From Verrucomicrobiota bacterium (GTDB lineage: Bacteria > Verrucomicrobiota > Verrucomicrobiia > Opitutales > Opitutaceae): a DNA stretch of 64,000 nucleotides. The notes beneath the pieces were generated by a model that saw only the letters and a program-made list of their open reading frames with translations, ran no database searches and was not told where the DNA came from. Position numbers and translations under genes: made by a program. Where the stretch lies: assembly GCA_018239675.1 (NCBI GenBank), contig JAFEGX010000125.1, positions 1 through 64,000 on the forward strand, in the 5' to 3' direction. Below are positions 52,457 to 63,150 of the stretch, in pieces. Positions within the stretch are counted from its first letter, which is position 1. Every line of letters starts with the position of its first letter.

Positions 52457-54052
52457 ATGAAACTCGCGCCCATCGGCCTCGCCGTGCTGGGCGTCGCGCT
52501 GGCCGCCGCGGCGACGCTGGGGTGGCGCCACGGCCGGCGCGCGGCGGACGACCGCGTGACGATCCGCCTGTCGCACTGGCAGCTCGAGGGCACGGTGCGC
52601 GAGGGCCTGCAGGCGGTGGCGCGGCGCTACGAGGAGCTCCATCCCCGGGTGAAGGTCGAGATCCTCGTCGTGCCGGACACGATCTACCGCCAGTGGATGC
52701 GGACCCAGCTTGTCGGCGGCACCGCCCCGGACCTGATCGAGTACACGATGTGGTGGGGCCGCATCGAGGAGCTCGCCCCGCGGTACTTCACCCCGATCAC
52801 CCGCTACGTGACCGAGCCCAATCCCTACAACCGGGGCACGCCGCTCGCGGGCGTCCCGTGGCGCGACACGTTCCTCGACGGCATGAACGGCGTGGACGGC
52901 TACAACACGCTGATGCGCGACTACTACGCGCCGACGATCGCGATGTTCACGATGCGGCTGTTCTACAACCGCACCCTGCTGCGGGAGATCACCGGCCGCG
53001 ACGAGCCGCCGCAGACTTGGCGGGAGTTCCTCGCGCTGGCGGACCAGGTCCGGGCGTTCGCGCGGCGCGAGCACCGGGTCGTGTCGACCATCGGCAACTC
53101 GTGGGACAACGCCCGCTGGCTGGCCGAGCCCGTGACGCACGGGATGGGCAGCCATTTTTCCCCGCAGCTCGACCATGACCACACGCTGAGCCTGTCGTAC
53201 TGGGAGGTGGCGCTCGGCTGGCAGCGGGGCGAGTGGTCGTTCCGCACGCCCGAGCTGGCCAACGGCCTCGCGGTGTTCCGCGAGCTCGGCAACGCCAGCC
53301 AGCCGGGCTTCGTGCAGATGAAGCGGGACGTCGCGATGCTCGACTTCCTCCGCGGCCACGCGCTCATCCTCTGCGCCGGCAGCTGGGACGCGAGCAGCCT
53401 GCGCCGCGAGGCGCCGTTTGAGGTGGGCGCGTTCCGCCTGCCGCTCCCCGGCGCCGAGGACCCGGTGTACGGCCCGCAGACCCTCGGTCCGCTGTCCGAC
53501 GGGTCCGTGCAGACCTCGACGCCGTTCTACCTGAACAAGGCGTCGGCCCATCCCGACGTGGCGCTCGATTTCCTGCGCTTCCTCACCAGCGTCGAGGGCA
53601 ACCAGATCTTCGTGAACATCAGCCAGTGGCTGCCGGCGATCCGCGGGGTGAAGCCGACGGACTTCTCGCGGCGGTTCATGCCGTTCTACGACGGCTACAA
53701 CTGGGGCGCGGCCACGTCCTACTTCAGCGGCACCGGCACGGAGATGAACATGTTCTTCCTCCAGGAAATGCACCGCCTGTTCGGCCCCGCCGGCAGCGTC
53801 GCCGCCTTCCAGGACGAGTTCGACCGGCGCGGCCGCGAGTACTCGAACCGCGACCTGCGCGCGCATCTCCGCGACTCGCGCGTGGCCTTCAACTCCGACG
53901 ACGTCTCCGCCACCGCCCGGCTCTGGATCACGCCCGGGTCCGACCGGCTGCCCGCCACGCCCGCCCTCCTCGAGGCGAAATACTACCAGACCGCCCGCGT
54001 GATGGATCCGCCCGGCGCCTCCGCCCCGACGTCTCCGCCCCAGTCGCCCTGA
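52457..54052 (+). CDS. Membrane-anchored family 1 solute-binding protein, cassette copy 1
   Basis: A 531-residue sugar-type binding protein. An N-terminal hydrophobic segment (about 4-22) is followed by RHGRRA, with neither lipobox Cys nor a convincing cleavage site, so it is likely anchored. The family 1 core begins RVTIRLSHWQLEG, with PDLIEYTMWW, NPYNRGTPLAGVPWRDT, SWDASSLRREAPFEVGAF and FLTSVEGNQIFVNISQWLPAI. It is about 100 residues longer than common SBPs, with an added C-terminal helical region. It is 50-60% alike by eye to the copies at 55577 and 58071. No permease or ATPase gene is nearby. The ligand is presumably an oligosaccharide. Confidence 0.88.
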   Translation: MKLAPIGLAVLGVALAAAATLGWRHGRRAADDRVTIRLSHWQLEGTVREGLQAVARRYEELHPRVKVEILVVPDTIYRQWMRTQLVGGTAPDLIEYTMWWGRIEELAPRYFTPITRYVTEPNPYNRGTPLAGVPWRDTFLDGMNGVDGYNTLMRDYYAPTIAMFTMRLFYNRTLLREITGRDEPPQTWREFLALADQVRAFARREHRVVSTIGNSWDNARWLAEPVTHGMGSHFSPQLDHDHTLSLSYWEVALGWQRGEWSFRTPELANGLAVFRELGNASQPGFVQMKRDVAMLDFLRGHALILCAGSWDASSLRREAPFEVGAFRLPLPGAEDPVYGPQTLGPLSDGSVQTSTPFYLNKASAHPDVALDFLRFLTSVEGNQIFVNISQWLPAIRGVKPTDFSRRFMPFYDGYNWGAATSYFSGTGTEMNMFFLQEMHRLFGPAGSVAAFQDEFDRRGREYSNRDLRAHLRDSRVAFNSDDVSATARLWITPGSDRLPATPALLEAKYYQTARVMDPPGASAPTSPPQSP

Positions 54053-54099
54053 CCGCCATGCCCCCGCGTCCCGGCCTCCCGCCTTCGTCCCGGCCCACT

Positions 54100-54130
54100 T
54101 GTCACCCAATGCGTGACCCGGGCCGGCGGC
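54100..54130. repeat. Shared 31-nt element containing GTCAC-N7-GTGAC, copy 1
   Basis: TGTCAC-CCAATGC-GTGACCCG followed by a GGCCGGCGG tail. The same pattern with four differences lies at 63167-63197. Here it spans the likely ATG (54109) of the TPR-like gene. Confidence 0.6.
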
Positions 54131-54909
54131 TGGCGCGCGGGGCCGCCATGGTGGCTGGGGTGCTCCTGGGAGTCGCCGCGCTCCGCGCCGCGCCGGCGGC
54201 GCCGGACCCGGCGTGGACCGCGCTGGCGCGGCTGCGGGCGGACGACGCGCTGCGCGAATTTGCCCGGGGAAATCGCCCGGAGGAGGAACGGGATTTCGGC
54301 ACGGCGGTGGCGCTGCTGGCGCGGCAGCCGATCGCGCCCGAGCAGGTGGCCGCGGCGCGCACGGTGTTCGCGCGGCTCGCGGACCACGGCTCCGGCGAGG
54401 TGGCGCCGGCCTCGCGCTATTTTCTCGGCCGCATCGCGCAGCACCACCTCGAGGTTGCCGATCCGGCGGAAGCCGCGCGGCAGTACCGCCGGCTGATCGC
54501 CGAGCACCCGGACTCGATCTGGGCCCAGACCGCGCTGACCCGGCTGGCCTTGCTGGAGCTCTATCCCGCCACTGCTGCCGGGTCGCCCGCCGCCGCTGTC
54601 GCCGCCGCCGAGGCGCTGTTGGACCACGCGAAGCTTCCGGCCGCCCGGAGCGAAATCCACCTGGTCGTGGCGGACGCGATCTTCTTCTATCGCCTGCCCG
54701 CCGCTCAGGCGCTGCCGCATCTCCTGGCGGCGGAGAAGATCGGCCTGCTCGATGCCCCGACCCGGGCCGACACCCTGATCCAGATCGCCGAGGTCTCGGT
54801 GCTGGCCGGCGATCGCGCCCGGGCCCGGCGGTACTACGAGGCCTACCTCGCCGACTTTCCGCTCGACCAGCGGCGCTTCATGGTTCGCCAGAAACTCGCG
54901 GGCCTTTGA
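54109..54909 (+). CDS. Secreted TPR-like protein, cassette copy 1
   Basis: A 266-residue protein with a signal peptide (RRLARGAAMVAGVLLGVAALRA) and helical TPR-like repeats, e.g. RYFLGRIAQHHLEVADPAEAARQYRRLIAEHPDS and LPHLLAAEKIGLLDAPTRADTLIQIAEVS. It is clearly homologous to the genes at 57157 and 59639. Starts at 54058 (6 bp after the SBP stop) or 54148 are also possible; 54109 gives the best signal peptide. It probably acts in the periplasm as a partner or scaffold of the adjacent SBP. Confidence 0.8.
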   Translation: MRDPGRRLARGAAMVAGVLLGVAALRAAPAAPDPAWTALARLRADDALREFARGNRPEEERDFGTAVALLARQPIAPEQVAAARTVFARLADHGSGEVAPASRYFLGRIAQHHLEVADPAEAARQYRRLIAEHPDSIWAQTALTRLALLELYPATAAGSPAAAVAAAEALLDHAKLPAARSEIHLVVADAIFFYRLPAAQALPHLLAAEKIGLLDAPTRADTLIQIAEVSVLAGDRARARRYYEAYLADFPLDQRRFMVRQKLAGL

Positions 54910-54972
54910 CTGGGCGGGCCGGACGGCCGACGCCGGCATTGCCCTGAACCCCGCGGCTGTCACGTTCGGGGC

Positions 54973-55500
54973 ATGGCCCGTCGCCTCCTGTTCCTGTGCC
55001 TCGTCCTGTCCGCCCTGCGGTGCGCCGCGGAGCCGCCGGCCGGGTGGAGCGCCCTCGAGGAGGAGGTGGCCGCCGCGGTGCGGGGCCCGCAGGTGACAGT
55101 GGTGCACTTCTGGGCGCCGTGGTGTCCCAACAGCCGGGCCGAGCTCGCGAACCACGGCTGGAGCACGTTTCTCGCCCTGAACCGGGACGTGAAGTTCATC
55201 TTCGTGACGGTCCGCAGCTCCGACGATTGCCGGGCGCTGCTGCACGAGAACGGCGTGGGGGACCAGCCCAACCTGGTGCTGCGCCACCATCCGAACCAGG
55301 TGCGCCGGGGCGACGGCGTGATCCAGAGCTTCATGGCCCTGCCGCTGACCTGGGTGCCATCGACCTGGGTGTTCTGCGACGGCCGGCTGCGCTACGCGCT
55401 CAACTACGGCGAGGTGCGTTTTCCGCTCCTGCAGCAGCTGATCCGCGACGCGGCGGACCCCTGGGAACACCCGGCGCCGGTCCGCCCGGCGGCGAAGTGA
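54973..55500 (+). CDS. Thioredoxin-like secreted protein with a monothiol site
   Basis: A 175-residue protein with a signal peptide (first about 18, ending RCAA). Thioredoxin-fold strand VTVVHFWAPWCPNSRAEL carries CPNS instead of CxxC, so only one active-site Cys, and the cis-Pro is in LPLTWVPSTWVF. It could be a monothiol oxidoreductase or a thiol-independent binding protein. It sits between cassette copies 1 and 2, on the same strand and with short gaps, and thus may belong to the system. Confidence 0.85.
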   Translation: MARRLLFLCLVLSALRCAAEPPAGWSALEEEVAAAVRGPQVTVVHFWAPWCPNSRAELANHGWSTFLALNRDVKFIFVTVRSSDDCRALLHENGVGDQPNLVLRHHPNQVRRGDGVIQSFMALPLTWVPSTWVFCDGRLRYALNYGEVRFPLLQQLIRDAADPWEHPAPVRPAAK

Positions 55501-55576
55501 CCACGGCCGGGCCGCAACTTCACTCTTGTCAGCCCCGACCCGGGGTTGGGAGTTTCGCCGGGCGCGACCCTCGCGC

Positions 55577-57160
55577 ATGGCCATGAGACTCACCGGAAAG
55601 ACCGTGGGCTTGCTGATGCTCGGCGCCGGCTACGTCGCGGCGGTGGTCCTGATGGTGTGGCGGGCGGCGGAGGAGGCGCGGCCGGACCGCGTGACGATCC
55701 GCGTGTCGCAGTGGCAGCTGGAGGGCGGCGTGCGGCAGGCCTTTGCCGCGATGATCCGCCGGTACGAGCAGCTCAACCCGCGCGTGCACGTCGAGCTGAT
55801 CTCGATCCCGGACCGCACGTACCGCCAGTGGGCGCAGACCCAGCTGATCGGCGGCGACGCCCCGGACATCGTGGAGTACGGCGTTGACTTCAATTCCGTC
55901 GGGCGGTTCTTCAGCCCGATCACCGACGAGGTGATGAAGCCGAACCCGTACAACCGGGGCACGCCGCTCGAGGGCGTGCCGTGGCGCGACACCTTCCTGG
56001 ACGCGATGATGAACGCGGACGGGTTCAACCCGCAGCTGAACCAGTACTACGCCGCGACGCTCACGCAGCACAGCATGCGGATGATCTATAACCGGCCGAT
56101 GCTGCGGGAGATCACCGGCTCCGACCAGCCGCCGCGCAACTACCGGGAGTTCCTCGCGCTCTGCGAGCGGGTGCAGGCGTTTGCGCGCGAGCACCGCCGC
56201 GAGCTGTCCCCGATCGCCAACTCCAAGGACACCGTGATCGGCGAGGCCATGTTCATCTTCGAGTGCTCGGCGAGCGGGGTCGCCGCGCGCATCGACCACC
56301 GCCACGTCTACGGGTTCACCAGCAAGGAGCTCGCGATGTCCTACCTGCGCGGCGACTGGAGCTTCCGCGAGCCGGAGCTCCGGATCGGCCTCGAGCTGCT
56401 CCAGGACCTCGGGAAGTTCAGCACGCCGGGGTTTCTCCAGCTGTCGCGCGACTCCGGCATCATGGACTTCGTCCGCCAGCGGACGCTCATGGTCGTGGCC
56501 CCGAGCTGGGAGGCGAGCAGCCTCAAGGAGCTCTGCGACTTCGACATCGGCGCGTTCCGGTATCCGGTGCCGCTCCAGGACGACCCGGTGTACGGGTCGA
56601 AGATGCTCGGTCCGTATGCCGACGGGCGGCTGGCCACGCTCATGGGCATGTACGTCAACCGCGCGACGAAGCACCGCGCGGAGGCGATCGATTTCCTGCA
56701 CTTCATCACGAGCGTGGAGGGCAACCAGATCTTCACCGACGTGAGCACCTGGCTGCCGGCGGTGGTCGGCGTCAAGGCGTCGGACTACTCGCGGCAGTTC
56801 CTGCCGATCTACGACGGCTACATCTGGTCGCTCGACGGCGGCTTCCTGAATCTCTCGGGCGACGACGCCGTCGCCCTGGTGCGCAACAATTTCTTCCAGC
56901 TCTGGGGGCCCAACGGCAACCCGGAGAAGTACCGCGCGGCGCTCGACGACGGCCTGAAGCCGCGGATCATTTCCGACCTCAAGCGGGAGATCCGCATCCG
57001 GACGCAGACGCTCACGCGGGAGGATGCGGCGGCGCTGGCCGCGCGGCAGCTCGCCCCCGGCGCCGCTGGTCCGGTGGCCCTGCTGCCGGCCCGGCTCGAG
57101 GGCCGGACCTTCCAGATGATCACCACCGTCCGCGAGGCGGAGCGGGAGGCGGCGAAATGA
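55577..57160 (+). CDS. Membrane-anchored family 1 solute-binding protein, cassette copy 2
   Basis: A 527-residue protein. The N-terminal hydrophobic segment (VGLLMLGAGYVAAVVLMVW, about 9-27) again lacks a lipobox. The core has RVTIRVSQWQLEGG, APDIVEYGVDF, NPYNRGTPLEGVPWRDTF, SWEASSLKELCDFDIGAF and FITSVEGNQIFTDVSTWLPA. Start at ATG 55577, or 55583 with two residues fewer. The stop overlaps the following TPR gene (ATGA), so the pair is translationally coupled. It is closer to copy 3 than to copy 1 by eye. Confidence 0.9.
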   Translation: MAMRLTGKTVGLLMLGAGYVAAVVLMVWRAAEEARPDRVTIRVSQWQLEGGVRQAFAAMIRRYEQLNPRVHVELISIPDRTYRQWAQTQLIGGDAPDIVEYGVDFNSVGRFFSPITDEVMKPNPYNRGTPLEGVPWRDTFLDAMMNADGFNPQLNQYYAATLTQHSMRMIYNRPMLREITGSDQPPRNYREFLALCERVQAFAREHRRELSPIANSKDTVIGEAMFIFECSASGVAARIDHRHVYGFTSKELAMSYLRGDWSFREPELRIGLELLQDLGKFSTPGFLQLSRDSGIMDFVRQRTLMVVAPSWEASSLKELCDFDIGAFRYPVPLQDDPVYGSKMLGPYADGRLATLMGMYVNRATKHRAEAIDFLHFITSVEGNQIFTDVSTWLPAVVGVKASDYSRQFLPIYDGYIWSLDGGFLNLSGDDAVALVRNNFFQLWGPNGNPEKYRAALDDGLKPRIISDLKREIRIRTQTLTREDAAALAARQLAPGAAGPVALLPARLEGRTFQMITTVREAEREAAK

Positions 57161-57966
57161 AGACCCCGTGCCTGCTCGCGGGCCTGCTCGGCCTGATCCT
57201 CGCGGCCCCGCTGCGCGCCGCGGACGCGGCGCCGGATGGGGCGCGCGAGGCGTGGGAGCTGCTGGCCGGCTACAAGCCCGAGCAGGCCCTGCACGCGTTC
57301 CGGGCCCTGACCGGCGGCGACCCGCGCCGGAACCAGCTGGGCGAGGCGATGGCGCTGCTGGCCCAGCCCATTCCGGTGCCGGACCGCGTGGCGCGCGGCC
57401 GGGCGCTGCTGGAGCAGGTGGCGGCGGGCCCGGACGACGACCTGGCGCTGGCCGCGCGTTTCTACCTGGGACGCGTGGCGGAGTTCCAGGCGGACCCGGT
57501 CGACCCGCGGGCGGCGGCGCAGCTCTTCGAGCGCCTGATCGCCGGGCATCCCGCGTCGCGCTGGGCGCAGGCCGCCATCGCCCGCCTGGCGATCCTGCAG
57601 CTCTACACCGCCGCGGGACCGGCCGCGCCGGCCGCCCGGGTGGACGAGGCCGAGAAACTGGTTGCCGCGGCCCGGGAGCCACAGGCGATCGCGGACCTCC
57701 ATCTCGTGATTGCCGACGCCGTGTTTCATTACCGGCTCCCGGACGCGCGCGCGCTGCCGCACCTGCTGGCGGCCGAGCGGACCGCCGTGCTCGACCCGAC
57801 GACCCGCGCCGACGTGCTCGTGCAGATCGGCGAGCTGGCGCGACTCGGCGGTGACCGGGCCCTGGCGGAGAAATTCTACCGGACCTTCCTGCAGGAGTAT
57901 CCGCGCGACGCCCGGCAGTATCCGGTCAAGCAGCAGCTCGCCGGCCTGGCGCACCTGTCGCCGTAG
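57157..57966 (+). CDS. Secreted TPR-like protein, cassette copy 2
   Basis: A 269-residue protein with a signal peptide (first about 22, ending APLRA). Homologous segments: RFYLGRVAEFQADPVDPRAAAQLFERLIAGHPAS, ADAVFHYRLPDARALPHLLAAER and FYRTFLQEYPRDARQ. Its ATG overlaps the SBP stop. A GGGAGG ribosome-binding site lies 7 nt before the ATG, inside the SBP gene. Role is unknown: binding partner, complex scaffold or peptidoglycan adaptor. Confidence 0.85.
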   Translation: MKTPCLLAGLLGLILAAPLRAADAAPDGAREAWELLAGYKPEQALHAFRALTGGDPRRNQLGEAMALLAQPIPVPDRVARGRALLEQVAAGPDDDLALAARFYLGRVAEFQADPVDPRAAAQLFERLIAGHPASRWAQAAIARLAILQLYTAAGPAAPAARVDEAEKLVAAAREPQAIADLHLVIADAVFHYRLPDARALPHLLAAERTAVLDPTTRADVLVQIGELARLGGDRALAEKFYRTFLQEYPRDARQYPVKQQLAGLAHLSP

Positions 57967-58070
57967 CGGCCGGCGGACCCGATTATTCGCGTCGCGGCGA
58001 CGACGGCTTGAACAATCGTGCAGCGCCGCCTTGCGCACACGGCGCCATAGTCTACATCGCCGGGGCCCGC

Positions 58071-59642
58071 ATGAAAATCTCCCGCCAGACGATCGGTTTC
58101 GCGCTGCTGGGCGTGGCGTACCTGATCGCGGCGTTCCTGGTCTTCCGGCACTCCGCGGAGGAGGCGCGGACGGACCGGGTGACCATCCGCTTCTCGCAGT
58201 GGCAGCTCGAGGGCACCGTGCGGAAGGCCTTCGACGCGATCATCGCCCGCTACGAGCAGCTCAACCCGCGGGTGCACGTGGTTCATCTCGCGGTGCCCGA
58301 CACGGTCTACCTGCCGTGGATCCAGACCCAGATGGTCGGCGGCACGGGGCCCGACATCGCCGAGTACGTCTGGATCTGGCCCGACATCGCGCGGCGCTTC
58401 CAGCCGCTCGACGAGGACGTGATGAAGCCGAACCCCTATAACCAGGGCACGCCGCTCGAGGGTGTGCCGTGGCGCGACACGAACATCGACGGCTTCTCGA
58501 ACGACGACAGCTACATCAAGGCGCTGAGCCACTACTACGGCATCACCGTGACGTCGCACGTCAACCGCATCGTCTACAACCGCGAGCTGATCCGGAAGAT
58601 CACCGGGTCGCCCGAGCCGCCGCGCACCTACCGGGAATTCGTGGCGCTGTGCGCGCGGATCCAGGCCTACGCGAAGGCCCACGACCTGAACCTGGTGCCG
58701 CTCGGGGCGTCGCAGGACACCTATCCGTTCCTGACCTACATGGTGATGGGCACGATGGGCTCGGGCCTGTCGGAGCGGCTCGATGTGCGGCACCGGCTGC
58801 AGATCTACCAGGACCAGCTCGCGTCGCAGTACCTCCGCGGCGAGTGGAACTTCGAGACCCCGGAGCTGGAGGCGGGCCTTGAGGTGCTCGAGCACCTCGG
58901 CTCCGTTGCCACCCCGGGTTTCGTGCAGCGCCGCCGGCACACGGCGCTCGCCGACTTCGTGGCGCAGCGGACCGCGATGGTCGCGATGCCGAGCTGGGAG
59001 GCGAGCAGCCTGCCCCTGATCTGCTCGTTCGACATCGGCGCGTTTCCGTTTCCCTATCCGCTGCAGGATGACCCGGTCTACGGCCACCTGGCTAGGGGGC
59101 CGTACGGCGAGGGGCCGCGCACCTCGGTGATGGGCCTGTACGTCAACCGCACGACCAAGCACCGGGCGGAGGCGATCGATTTCCTGCAGTTCCTCACCAG
59201 CGTCGAGGGCGCGCGGATCTTCACCAACGTGAGCAACTGGCAGCCGGCCACCGTCGGCGTGAAGCCGTCGGGCTTTGCCGCGCAGTTCACCCAGGAGACC
59301 GAGGGCTGGGCGTGGGCCGCGAGCTACATCGGCATCACGATCGACGCCGAGCAGTTCCTCCGCACGCGCTTCAGCACGCTCTGGAACGCGAACGGCGGGC
59401 TCAAGGCCTTCCAGGCGGAGGTGAAGGCGGGGCTGGAGTCGCGCATCCGGGACGACCTCCGGCGGGAGGTCATCAGCGGCGTCCACAATCTCCAGCGCGA
59501 GGACAACATCGCGGTCGCGTCGTACTTCGCGACGCCGCCCGACCGGCGGCCGCGGAAGCTCGAGCTCGCCACGCTTTCCAACGAGATCAAGGTCTACCAG
59601 TTCGGCCGCCTGCTCGCGGCTCCGGACCCGAGGCACCCATGA
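58071..59642 (+). CDS. Membrane-anchored family 1 solute-binding protein, cassette copy 3
   Basis: A 523-residue protein. Anchor segment IGFALLGVAYLIAAFLVF at about 7-24, no lipobox. The core shows RVTIRFSQWQLEGTVR, GPDIAEYVWIW, NPYNQGTPLEGVPWRDTNIDG, SWEASSLPLICSFDIGAF and FLTSVEGARIFTNVSNWQPA. The ATG at 58071 was chosen over one 63 bp upstream. Its stop overlaps the third TPR gene (ATGA). Aromatic residues in the presumed ligand cleft differ from copies 1 and 2 (WIW against MWW and DFN), suggesting different ligands. Confidence 0.9.
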   Translation: MKISRQTIGFALLGVAYLIAAFLVFRHSAEEARTDRVTIRFSQWQLEGTVRKAFDAIIARYEQLNPRVHVVHLAVPDTVYLPWIQTQMVGGTGPDIAEYVWIWPDIARRFQPLDEDVMKPNPYNQGTPLEGVPWRDTNIDGFSNDDSYIKALSHYYGITVTSHVNRIVYNRELIRKITGSPEPPRTYREFVALCARIQAYAKAHDLNLVPLGASQDTYPFLTYMVMGTMGSGLSERLDVRHRLQIYQDQLASQYLRGEWNFETPELEAGLEVLEHLGSVATPGFVQRRRHTALADFVAQRTAMVAMPSWEASSLPLICSFDIGAFPFPYPLQDDPVYGHLARGPYGEGPRTSVMGLYVNRTTKHRAEAIDFLQFLTSVEGARIFTNVSNWQPATVGVKPSGFAAQFTQETEGWAWAASYIGITIDAEQFLRTRFSTLWNANGGLKAFQAEVKAGLESRIRDDLRREVISGVHNLQREDNIAVASYFATPPDRRPRKLELATLSNEIKVYQFGRLLAAPDPRHP

Positions 59643-60481
59643 CCCGCGCGCGTCAATTTTCTTGGGGTCATGGGCTGCTGGCCGTGCTGCTGGCGCTGGC
59701 CGGGCCTGCGGCCGGACGCGGCGCGGACCTGACCGCGGGCTGGGAGGCGCTGACCAACTACCAGGCGGGGGAGGCGCTGAGGATCTTTGCCGCGGGCGAG
59801 GCTTCCACCAACCCTGCGACGGTGCGCGAGGCGCGCTTTGGCCGCGGGGTCGCGCTGCTCACCCGGCAGCCGGTCACTGCCGGCCAGATCGACGAGGCGC
59901 GCGGCCTGTTCCGGGCGCTGGCCGAAAGCGGCGCGGACGACTTCGCGCTGGGCGCGCGGTTCTACCTGGGCCGCATCGCGCAGCATCATCAGGAGACGCC
60001 CGACCCGGACGAGGCCGCCCGGCAGTTCCGCCTGCTGCTGAACGAGCACCCGGACTCAGTCTGGTCGCAGTCCGCGCTCAGCCGGCTGGCGCTGCTGCAG
60101 CTCTACGCCCTCGACCCGGGTTTCACGCCTGACCAGCGGATCGCCGCCGCGAAGAAGCTGCTCGCGCTGGCGCGAGTCCCGGCCGCCGAGGGCGAGGTGC
60201 ACATCGCAATCGCCGAGGCGATTTTCTACTACCGGCTGCCCGGCGAGCGCGCGCTGCCGCACCTGCTGGCGGCCGAGCGGCTCGGCGGGTATGACCGCGT
60301 CGGGCGTGCCGACATCCTGCTCCAGATCGCGGAGCTCTCCCGGCTCGCGGGCCTGCGGGCGCAGGCGGCGAAGTTCTACCATCTCTTCCTGAAGGAAAAT
60401 CCGCGCGACTCGGCGAACTACAACGCCCGGATGCATCTCGCCGAGGTCGAGCCGCCGGCCGCGGCGCCGGCGAAACGGTAG
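59639..60481 (+). CDS. Secreted TPR-like protein, cassette copy 3
   Basis: A 280-residue protein with a signal peptide (first about 29, ending GRGA). Homologous segments: RFYLGRIAQHHQETPDPDEAARQFRLLLNEHPDS, AEAIFYYRLPGERALPHLLAAERLG and FYHLFLKENPRDSA. Its ATG overlaps the SBP stop, and GAGG lies about 5 nt before the ATG. It ends the rightward series of cassettes. The next 137 bp hold only repeat-like sequence (GGCACGAAGGGCCCCAAGAACACG). Confidence 0.85.
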   Translation: MTRARQFSWGHGLLAVLLALAGPAAGRGADLTAGWEALTNYQAGEALRIFAAGEASTNPATVREARFGRGVALLTRQPVTAGQIDEARGLFRALAESGADDFALGARFYLGRIAQHHQETPDPDEAARQFRLLLNEHPDSVWSQSALSRLALLQLYALDPGFTPDQRIAAAKKLLALARVPAAEGEVHIAIAEAIFYYRLPGERALPHLLAAERLGGYDRVGRADILLQIAELSRLAGLRAQAAKFYHLFLKENPRDSANYNARMHLAEVEPPAAAPAKR

Positions 60482-60618: not shown

Positions 60619-63075
60619 CTACGCAATGGGGATGACCTGCGACGGCAAGCGCAGCGGCTTGAAGTGCCACGCGGGAATCAGGGTGGGAGATGGCGCGTCC
60701 GGCAGGTCGGCAAAGTTCTTCTCGCCGACAATCTGTCCCGGGCTCACGACATGCCAGTCGCCGTTGTAATAATGGTGCGGGCCGAAGTAGTTGAACGTGC
60801 TCGGCACCAGTTCGACGCGGAGCCGGTGCGGGCCCGCCGCCAGCGGTGCCGGCAGCGACAAGGTCCAGTCCGGACCCCAGGCCCAGCCGGCCGGCCGGCC
60901 GTCCACCCAGGCCCGGATGGCGTCGCCCATCATCCCGCCGAAGCGCAGTTGCCGCGCAATCGACCCCAGCTCGAAATTCGCCTCGGCCACCAGCGGGCGA
61001 TGCAGGAACGGCAGGCCGGCGGCCGCGAGCTCGGCGTCCGCCGCCAGGGTCGCGACGCGCCCGACGAACGGCCCGGCGGTCCGCAGCGTGCCGTTCGGAC
61101 CCGGGGTGAATGGGGTCCGGCTGTGCACCGTGAGCCCGCCCTTGAGCCAGACATAGGGCCGGGCGGAGAACTCGCGCTCGGTGCGGAAGCGGAGCCCGTG
61201 GCTTCCGTCCGCGAGTCCCGCCAGCGGGGCCACCGCGCCTTCGTAGTCCGGCGTGAGCGTGAGCGGCCGGCCGTCGAGGCTCGCGTTCACCAGATCGTCG
61301 GTGAAATGGAGGTGCAGCCCGGCCGGCATCCGGGCGCCGAACTCGGTCTGGAACGTCGCGACGTACTCGCGGGGTGCGGTCCGCTCCGGCTCGATGAGCC
61401 AGGAATTCTCGGGCAGGGCCGGCGCGGCCCAGGTGAGGCGGGCCAACCCGGGTTCGGCCGGCCGCCCGGCGGCCGTGACGGACACCGCCGGCCGCGTCGC
61501 GAGGGTGGCGACGCTGGCGCGCAACGCGGGCGGCAGGAGCCGCTGGCCGGACTCGCGCAGCCGCGCCCCGTCGTCGACCACGACCCGCGCGTAGGTTGCC
61601 TGGCCGAGGCGCAGGCGGCCCGACTCGAGCCGGCCGTCCTCCTCGAGCGTGCGCTCGTCGGTCACGTCGTAGGGAATGCCGGCGGCCTTGAGCTGCTCGA
61701 GCCGCGCGAGAAACGCGCGGTTGATCCGGCCGGCGGGCGTGTCGGGGTAGGTGGTTGCGACGTGGAGATTGGTCTGCCAGAGCTCCCACGGCTCGTACTC
61801 GGCCATCAGGCCGCGGTACGGGGCGACGACGAGCGTGTCGGGCACGGCCGGCGGGTGGGCGGCGAGCTCGCGCGTGACGCGGGCGAGCAGCTCCGGGAAC
61901 GCCTCGCGCCAGCTCAGGTGCAGCGGCTCCGACGGCGGCCAGTCCGTGAGCGCCGGCGTGTCGAGCCGGTACTGGCTCAGGTGGAAGACGAAATCGGTGA
62001 GCCCGTTCCGGCCGAGCCAGAGCACGTAGCGCTCGAGATCCTCGGGCGTCGCACCCCAGCCGGCGCCGCCGAAGCACTCGACCATGCACCGGCCGTTGCT
62101 GAACTGGCGCGACGCGGCGGCTGCCTGGCGCGGATAGAAGTCCAGGGCCGGGTGGCGTTCGAGGGCGTCGATGCCCGGGATGCTGAGGTGGCGGAAGATC
62201 CGGTGACACGACCCGACCATCGGGAGCTGGAAGAGCGGGTGTTCCTCGCCCTTCACGTGCGCGATGAACTGCTTGCCCTGGCGCCGGCACCACGCGAGAT
62301 AGGGCGCGAAGAAGCCGTCAATCAGCGCGTCGGTGACCGCCTCCCAGTACCGGACCCGCACCTCCTGGTAGCCGTCGCCGCGGGCGAAGATCAGCGGCAG
62401 CTGCGCGGCGAAGTCGGCGCCGAGCGCCGCGCGGAGGCGTTCGGGCATGGAAGGGGTCCACGGGATCCCGGCGACGTCGGGGAACGGATCCTTGAGGATG
62501 CCCGCCTCGGGCTCGTCGGCGAAGAAGGCCTCGACGTACTCGAACGCCGCCGGCTCCAGGCCGGTGCGGTAGCGCTCGTGGATCAGGTCGAGGAAATGGC
62601 CGAGCACGCGCGGCTCGAGGGAATCGACGTAGTTCGTCCGGCGCGGCGTCAGGTGCCAGGTCCGGGCGCCGTTGGTGCCGGCGGGCACGAGGCGGTTCGA
62701 GGCGTCGGTGGCGAAGGCGCCGAGCGAGTCCGGCGCGGCCTGCGGCGTGAGGTCGAGGCGCAGCGACGCGCTGTCGGGAAACCGCGCGAGCACCTGGCCG
62801 TCGCCCGTGCCGCTGGGCCAGCCGTTCTCGTCGTAGAGCCAGTAGCGCAGGCCGAGTTCCCTGGCGTGCAGGATCGAGTCGTTCACCAGCCGGAGATATT
62901 CCGGGCTCATGTACGGCGGGCGGCCCGGGTAGAATCGCGGGTGGAACACCACGCCGTGCAGGCCGGCCGCGCGGAAATCCTCGAGCTGGCGGCGCAGGCG
63001 CGCCCGGTCGAGGGCGCCGTTGATGGACCAGAACGTGTAGAAACGCGGGGTGCGGTCGGCGGCGACGGAGGACAT
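60619..63075 (-). CDS. GH106-like glycoside hydrolase
   Basis: An 818-residue protein without a signal peptide. The N-terminal barrel has RRQLEDFRAAGLHGVVFHPRFYPG and GLRYWLYDENGWPSGTGDG, the pattern of GH106-related alpha-L-rhamnosidase-like proteins. Acidic candidates for catalysis are in YVEAFFADEPEAG and AHVKGEEHP. It ends in beta-sandwich domains with AWVDGRPAGWAWGPDW. I chose the ATG at 63075; the frame extends to 63150 but that part overlaps the operator-like sites. It is convergent with the SBP-TPR series and presumably trims the same glycan. The substrate is not proved. Confidence 0.75.
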   Translation of the reverse strand: MSSVAADRTPRFYTFWSINGALDRARLRRQLEDFRAAGLHGVVFHPRFYPGRPPYMSPEYLRLVNDSILHARELGLRYWLYDENGWPSGTGDGQVLARFPDSASLRLDLTPQAAPDSLGAFATDASNRLVPAGTNGARTWHLTPRRTNYVDSLEPRVLGHFLDLIHERYRTGLEPAAFEYVEAFFADEPEAGILKDPFPDVAGIPWTPSMPERLRAALGADFAAQLPLIFARGDGYQEVRVRYWEAVTDALIDGFFAPYLAWCRRQGKQFIAHVKGEEHPLFQLPMVGSCHRIFRHLSIPGIDALERHPALDFYPRQAAAASRQFSNGRCMVECFGGAGWGATPEDLERYVLWLGRNGLTDFVFHLSQYRLDTPALTDWPPSEPLHLSWREAFPELLARVTRELAAHPPAVPDTLVVAPYRGLMAEYEPWELWQTNLHVATTYPDTPAGRINRAFLARLEQLKAAGIPYDVTDERTLEEDGRLESGRLRLGQATYARVVVDDGARLRESGQRLLPPALRASVATLATRPAVSVTAAGRPAEPGLARLTWAAPALPENSWLIEPERTAPREYVATFQTEFGARMPAGLHLHFTDDLVNASLDGRPLTLTPDYEGAVAPLAGLADGSHGLRFRTEREFSARPYVWLKGGLTVHSRTPFTPGPNGTLRTAGPFVGRVATLAADAELAAAGLPFLHRPLVAEANFELGSIARQLRFGGMMGDAIRAWVDGRPAGWAWGPDWTLSLPAPLAAGPHRLRVELVPSTFNYFGPHHYYNGDWHVVSPGQIVGEKNFADLPDAPSPTLIPAWHFKPLRLPSQVIPIA

Positions 63076-63138
63076 CGGGGAGGCGCGGAACCTACGCCGC
63101 CGGCCCGCCTCGAGGGAAACGGAAAACGCGCGCCGGGG

Positions 63139-63150
63139 GTGAACGTTCAC
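63139..63150. promoter_or_regulatory. Perfect 12-bp palindrome upstream of the GH106-like gene
   Basis: GTGAACGTTCAC is fully symmetric with a central CG, like LacI/GalR-type operators, and lies 64 bp upstream of the ATG at 63075. Confidence 0.55.

Follow-up and report, generated by a model that had tools for sequence, protein, structure and literature searches.

Tandem anchored solute-binding proteins with TPR-like partners as probable capture cassettes of one shared carbohydrate ABC permease in Verrucomicrobiota

Which transporter, if any, is served by three tandem pairs of genes that encode family-1 solute-binding proteins (SBPs) and TPR-like partners? The window (the whole stretch of 64,000 nucleotides that was analysed) is part of contig C28 of the host genome, G000, an assembly of 148 contigs with ~95.5% completeness. 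Comparison of this genome with its relatives leads us to consider it likely that each pair is a capture cassette, interchangeable with the others, of a single carbohydrate ABC importer, in which one MalF/MalG translocator is common to many SBP-TPR cassettes. The features of the cluster are as follows.

52457-54052, + strand: SBP1, membrane-anchored family-1 (sugar-type) SBP of cassette 1; 531 aa; SBP_bac_1 E 4.6e-20, SBP_bac_8 E 6.1e-16; own orthologue group in relatives
54109-54909, + strand: TPR1, exported TPR-like partner of cassette 1; 266 aa; TPR_14 E 3.2e-5; family found mostly in SBP cassettes
54973-55500, + strand: thioredoxin-like exported protein located between cassettes 1 and 2, with a WCPNS motif; Thioredoxin E 0.0035; homologues adjoin the same cassettes in ~half of class I loci (those with the SBP-TPR order of the window)
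55577-57160, + strand: SBP2, anchored SBP of cassette 2; 527 aa; SBP_bac_8 E 2.8e-10, SBP_bac_1 E 5.1e-10
57157-57966, + strand: TPR2, partner in cassette 2, its start overlapping the SBP2 stop (ATGA); 269 aa; TPR_6 E 7.3e-6
58071-59642, + strand: SBP3, anchored SBP of cassette 3; 523 aa; SBP_bac_1 E 2.8e-12; AlphaFold2 model pLDDT 84.6; top PDB matches are RafE and further oligosaccharide SBPs
59639-60481, + strand: TPR3, partner in cassette 3, its start overlapping the SBP3 stop (ATGA); 280 aa; TPR_6 E 1.9e-5; AlphaFold2 model pLDDT 91.5, an all-helical TPR superhelix

The arrangement is as originally predicted: all six cassette genes are open frames on the + strand, forming three homologous pairs, and the starts of TPR2 and TPR3 sit on the ATGA that closes the preceding SBP gene; the gap between SBP1 and TPR1 is 56 nt. 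Together with the thioredoxin-like gene, they make up seven consecutive genes of one orientation, bordered on both sides by genes of the opposite strand, an aldo/keto reductase upstream and, downstream, an 843-aa protein (60619-63150, - strand) with no Pfam match that by eye looks like a glycoside hydrolase. The thioredoxin-like gene, like the three SBP-TPR pairs that the genome has on other contigs, had been absent from the original prediction; its CXXC site reads CPNS in most relatives and CSNC in two loci (L028 and L034). No sigma-70-type promoters were found, and terminator-like sites occur at chance level only.

The three SBPs are 41-50% identical to one another and the three TPRs 44-50%. 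The SBPs score above the curated cut-offs of both the SBP_bac_1 and SBP_bac_8 profiles, and the SBP3 model has the two-lobed fold of family-1 (cluster B) carbohydrate SBPs, preceded by an uncleaved-looking N-terminal helix and followed by a helical C-terminal extension; among solved structures, those closest to it are of SBPs that bind oligosaccharides, for example RafE and NagB. SBPs of this family would be expected to be secreted or to be lipoproteins with a lipobox, but the N-terminal hydrophobic segment of the window SBPs has no Cys, in line with the lack of a lipobox noted earlier, and forms a single helix in the model (residues 5-33 of SBP3), which makes them an anchored variant. In an SBP relative from a spirochaete MAG (L042 9707-11722), which has no TPR neighbour, a LysM-like segment separates the membrane helix from the SBP domain. 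Matches of the window TPRs are limited to single TPR repeats, with scores near the cut-offs, and no profile beyond TPR repeats was matched at E 0.01. Of the two segments described as conserved among the TPRs, ALPHLLAAE is invariant across all three, while RFYLGRIAQ marks a segment that is conserved but worded inexactly, the true pattern being R-[YF]-[FY]-LGR-[IV]-A-[QE].

The cluster indeed lacks a permease: the permease domain PF00528 is absent from the whole window, and the nearest one lies 7 kb past the cluster, at contig position 67447. A profile search of the host genome gave 18 SBP_bac_1 matches and 35 permease-domain matches. SBPs and TPRs of the window type number six each, in three pairs on C28, one on C12 and two on C80, and none of these six pairs has a permease beside it. 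One MalF/MalG-type permease pair, on C53 at ~12.7-14.5 kb, has no adjoining SBP or TPR gene; both of its members are BPD_transp_1 permeases (PF00528 E 2e-18 and 2.6e-12) with conserved EAA-loop residues, and its neighbours, by sequence reading, are sigma-factor-like, DNA-glycosylase-like, TolC-type and lipoprotein-export-type ATPase genes.

The SBP gene that usually stands beside such permeases is missing from this position in the host, but is found in eight related genomes, in which the genes occur in the order TPR-SBP-MalF-MalG (L043 Pelagicoccus, L044 Cerasicoccus frondis, L097, L099 and L114-L117); in G474 the order is TPR-SBP-GH1-like-another gene-MalF-MalG-MalK. The operon SBPs with a readable start carry an N-terminal segment similar to that of the window SBPs. 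Identity of the C53 permeases to operon permeases from within their own family and order (L097, L099, L114, L115) is 59-78% for MalF and 58-66% for MalG; it is 40-58% to more distant ones and at most 38% to the other host sugar permeases examined. Similarly, in a tree of MalF-type permeases, C53 falls inside the clade of operon permeases and the other host permeases outside it, with some deep branches long and weakly supported. The MalF-type permeases of L043 (11692-13221) and L044 (10785-12251) are ~490-510 aa long and, compared with the usual form of the family, contain an insertion of ~170 aa.

The separation of permease and SBP genes recurs in 11 other genomes (G066, G260, G394, G050, G232, G268, G256, G035, G144, G207 and G274), although in G260 the contig starts just upstream of the permease pair; in G340 a divergent SBP gene adjoins the pair. 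Many of the compared genomes are draft assemblies and the gene calls around the loci follow a simple composition rule, but the main points also hold in the single-contig G035 and the two-contig G274. A distant permease shared by the cassettes, one of two readings in the original prediction, is therefore strongly supported, because complete operons exist in relatives, because the host combines six permease-less SBP-TPR pairs with one SBP-less permease pair of the operon type, and because the same separation is seen in these 11 genomes, G035 and G274 included.

The co-occurrence of permease and SBP genes, which the original prediction had proposed to tabulate, is near-perfect for the C53-type permease. 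At the family level (250 genomes), 49 genomes have both, two the permease only, three the SBP only and 196 neither (phi 0.94, leaving out one borderline partial permease match, in G316); at the order level (273 genomes), the corresponding numbers are 17, 0, 1 and 255. Related genomes count shared ancestry repeatedly, an effect that is lessened but not removed by a test at the level of genera, of which 15 have both, one the permease only, one the SBP only and 32 neither (p 1.6e-10). This co-occurrence adds to the support for a shared permease; the five family genomes with one component only count against it, as does the complete importer downstream of the cluster.

That importer, with permeases at 67.2-69.0 kb of C28 and its own lipoprotein SBP at ~69.2 kb, might be the one that the cassettes serve, rather than the C53 pair. 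Besides its proximity, close homologues speak for this: L030 and L037 each have one (87-90% identical) downstream of a class I cassette, and in both G349 and G408 one shares its contig with a class I SBP. However, its own SBP gene lies directly behind it (L017 7171-10426: MalF, MalG, lipoprotein SBP), and its permeases are only ~26% (MalF) to 36% (MalG) identical to those of C53. Its close orthologue occurs in 9 of 52 SBP-bearing family genomes and, among 12 genomes sampled from the genus, in 4, whereas all 12 have the SBPs and the C53-type permease. Used as a control, its permease gave a phi of 0.35 for close orthologues and 0.18 for a looser set, compared to 0.94 for the C53 type. We thus regard service to this importer as distinctly improbable, and its phylogenetic profile rules it out as a general partner of the cassettes.

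The second reading in the original prediction was that the anchored SBP-TPR pairs work independently of any permease, sensing sugars or holding them at the membrane. The permease-less clusters and the membrane anchors would fit such a role, and some SBPs are known to signal to sensor kinases (PMC11113362). Beside the three window cassettes we recognised neither a sensor kinase nor a chemoreceptor, and this reading is disfavoured by the orphan C53 pair, by the near-perfect co-occurrence with a single permease clade and by the intact operons of relatives, which pair the same anchored SBP type with a permease; we consider it improbable.

The copy numbers, for which all candidates were scored for SBP and TPR, are many-to-one. 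The ratio of SBP to TPR to permease is 6:6:1 in the host, 7:7:1 in both G066 and G268, 2:2:1 in G050, 3:3:1 in the single-contig G035 and 12:8:1 in the two-contig G274; it is 1:1:1 in G164, which has the operon on a single contig. In the SBP tree, the class I loci form one clade (29 rows) nested within the TPR-SBP forms, with one further SBP-TPR locus (G207) elsewhere, and the complete-operon forms branch at several places outside the class I clade. The basal placement of operon forms, at several points of the tree, and the derived state of most orphan forms would also be expected if the pairs were relics, remaining after the loss of their own permeases. Such an origin is extremely improbable, since no reading frame is broken, identity within orthologue groups remains at 69-79% across genomes, paralogues have expanded to 7-12 copies in a genome, and the genomes retain exactly the matching permease.

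SBP1, SBP2 and SBP3 fall into separate orthologue groups in other genomes (identity between groups is 45%), and the tandem copies are therefore old. The original prediction had suggested a different ligand for each. This is plausible, because the groups also differ clearly in the loop after PD-x-x-EY; few positions (4) are fixed but different across all three groups, and a clear group difference is confined to that loop. The corresponding loop of E. coli MalE touches maltose.

Genes around the family cassettes encode GH123, GH38, GH141-type and melibiase-like enzymes, FGGY kinases, sugar-isomerase-like proteins and GFO/IDH/MocA proteins, with unrelated genes intermixed. Because glycoside hydrolases and FGGY kinases are among these neighbours, and because the best fold matches of SBP3 are oligosaccharide binders, the ligands are probably sugars. 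In G274, family SBPs with no TPR neighbour (L177, L178, L179) immediately follow a GH20-like gene or have lyase-like genes next to them, as judged by sequence.

ATPases that power several sugar importers, such as MsmK and MsmX, are found elsewhere. The host has one OB_MalK ATPase gene, on C68, a count that agrees with a shared permease. MalK-type genes lie next to C53-homologous permeases in G050, where one (PF17912) adjoins the separate pair, and, by sequence, in G474. In the mechanism that we propose, each anchored SBP would bind its own glycan in the periplasm, with its co-inherited TPR protein as a cognate periplasmic scaffold, and all SBPs would deliver to the single MalF/MalG-type pair on C53, presumably powered by the sole MalK-type ATPase of C68, which would also serve other sugar importers.

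The role of the TPR protein is the weakest part of this model. SBP and TPR distances are correlated with an r of 0.845, compared to a mean of 0.674 (sd 0.029) when partners were reassigned within genomes; in 2000 such reassignments, no value as high was reached. Thus, the two proteins are co-inherited more tightly than genome sharing alone would give, which also fits the shared permease and favours direct pairing without proving contact. A scaffold for its own SBP is the most likely role, and ligand hand-over or enzyme tethering is possible. It is doubtful, though by no means far-fetched, that the TPR protein acts instead at another step, for example taking up glycans from an outer-membrane porin, a role suggested for TatT with lipids in TPAT systems (see below), or holding periplasmic glycosidases, a question that concerns only the TPR role and not the shared permease. 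The TPR protein looks exported and has no anchor, glycosidase genes adjoin the cassettes, and a transfer of ligand from the TPR protein TatT to its own SBP has been proposed (PMC5812351), but the excess co-inheritance speaks for direct pairing.

The original prediction had also asked whether permeases always lie just beyond such clusters, which is not so, and whether TPR-like proteins occur independently of SBPs, which is true in a few genomes. Weaker TPR relatives are present without an SBP in three genomes of one genus (G212, G236, G244) and in G252, and SBPs lack a neighbouring TPR in G207 and in four of 12 cases in G274. The four G274 SBPs and the three one-genus genomes indicate that the TPR is not obligatory, and strict mutual dependence is ruled out. 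Lone TPR relatives at L106, L108 and L110, from one genus, share a conserved neighbourhood with no SBP or permease.

If the model is correct, swappable SBP-TPR cassettes, not whole transporters, determine the sugar specificity of these glycan-degrading Verrucomicrobiota, and a new sugar can be gained through one two-gene cassette. It would explain many SBP genes that have no neighbouring permease, and counts of transporters based on adjacency would overlook such systems. The cassettes also provide a defined test case for the service of a TPR partner to an SBP.

Among known systems, CUT1 importers (MalEFGK2 type, with cluster B SBPs) are alike in the SBP_bac_1 fold, the two BPD_transp_1 permeases with EAA loops, the MalK-type ATPase and, in relatives, the full operon. 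They differ in that here the SBP is uncleaved-looking and membrane-anchored, is extended by helices at its C-terminus, is accompanied by a TPR partner gene, and is encoded in multiplied cassettes detached from one permease. The SusCD type is not indicated, as the window TPRs gave no match to the SusD profile and no TonB receptor was recognised directly beside the three cassettes. Several SBPs serve one peptide permease in P. aeruginosa (DppA1-A5/DppBCDF; PMC4206461), and five binding proteins serve two permeases in Borrelia Opp (PMC5736914); there too, many paralogous SBPs widen the range of a translocator. However, the substrates are peptides rather than carbohydrates, and the available parts of these accounts name no TPR partner; here, up to 12 SBPs are dispersed, many beside glycan-degradation genes.

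In TPR-protein-associated TRAP transporters (TPAT; TatT-TatP, PMC5812351), a periplasmic TPR-type protein is likewise encoded with an SBP and pairs with it, as it probably does here. TPAT systems use a TRAP (DctQM) permease and a DctP-type SBP, whereas the operon partners here are BPD_transp_1 permeases and SBP_bac_1 proteins, and similarity was found only in the TPR helices: Foldseek and VIA-align gave general TPR superhelices (LGN, OGT, PilF, BamD, LapB), with TatT, the TPR protein with a central pore, not among the matches listed. ECF transporters (PMC7755397) share a proposed exchange of membrane-bound capture subunits on one energised module, but their S-components are integral membrane proteins, and here classical SBPs sit on a single anchor. 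It could equally prove right or wrong that an anchored SBP and its dedicated TPR form a permanent capture unit, up to a dozen of which, each linked to a separate glycan-degradation locus, compete like S-components for one permease and ATPase, in what would be a new class of ABC importer. We found no description in the open-access literature of a carbohydrate ABC importer with dedicated TPRs, or of a many-to-one layout in Verrucomicrobia. Permease sharing is already known in peptide importers and TPR-SBP partnership in TRAP transporters; new here are the carbohydrate type and the scale of the sharing, together with the anchors and a co-inherited TPR partner.
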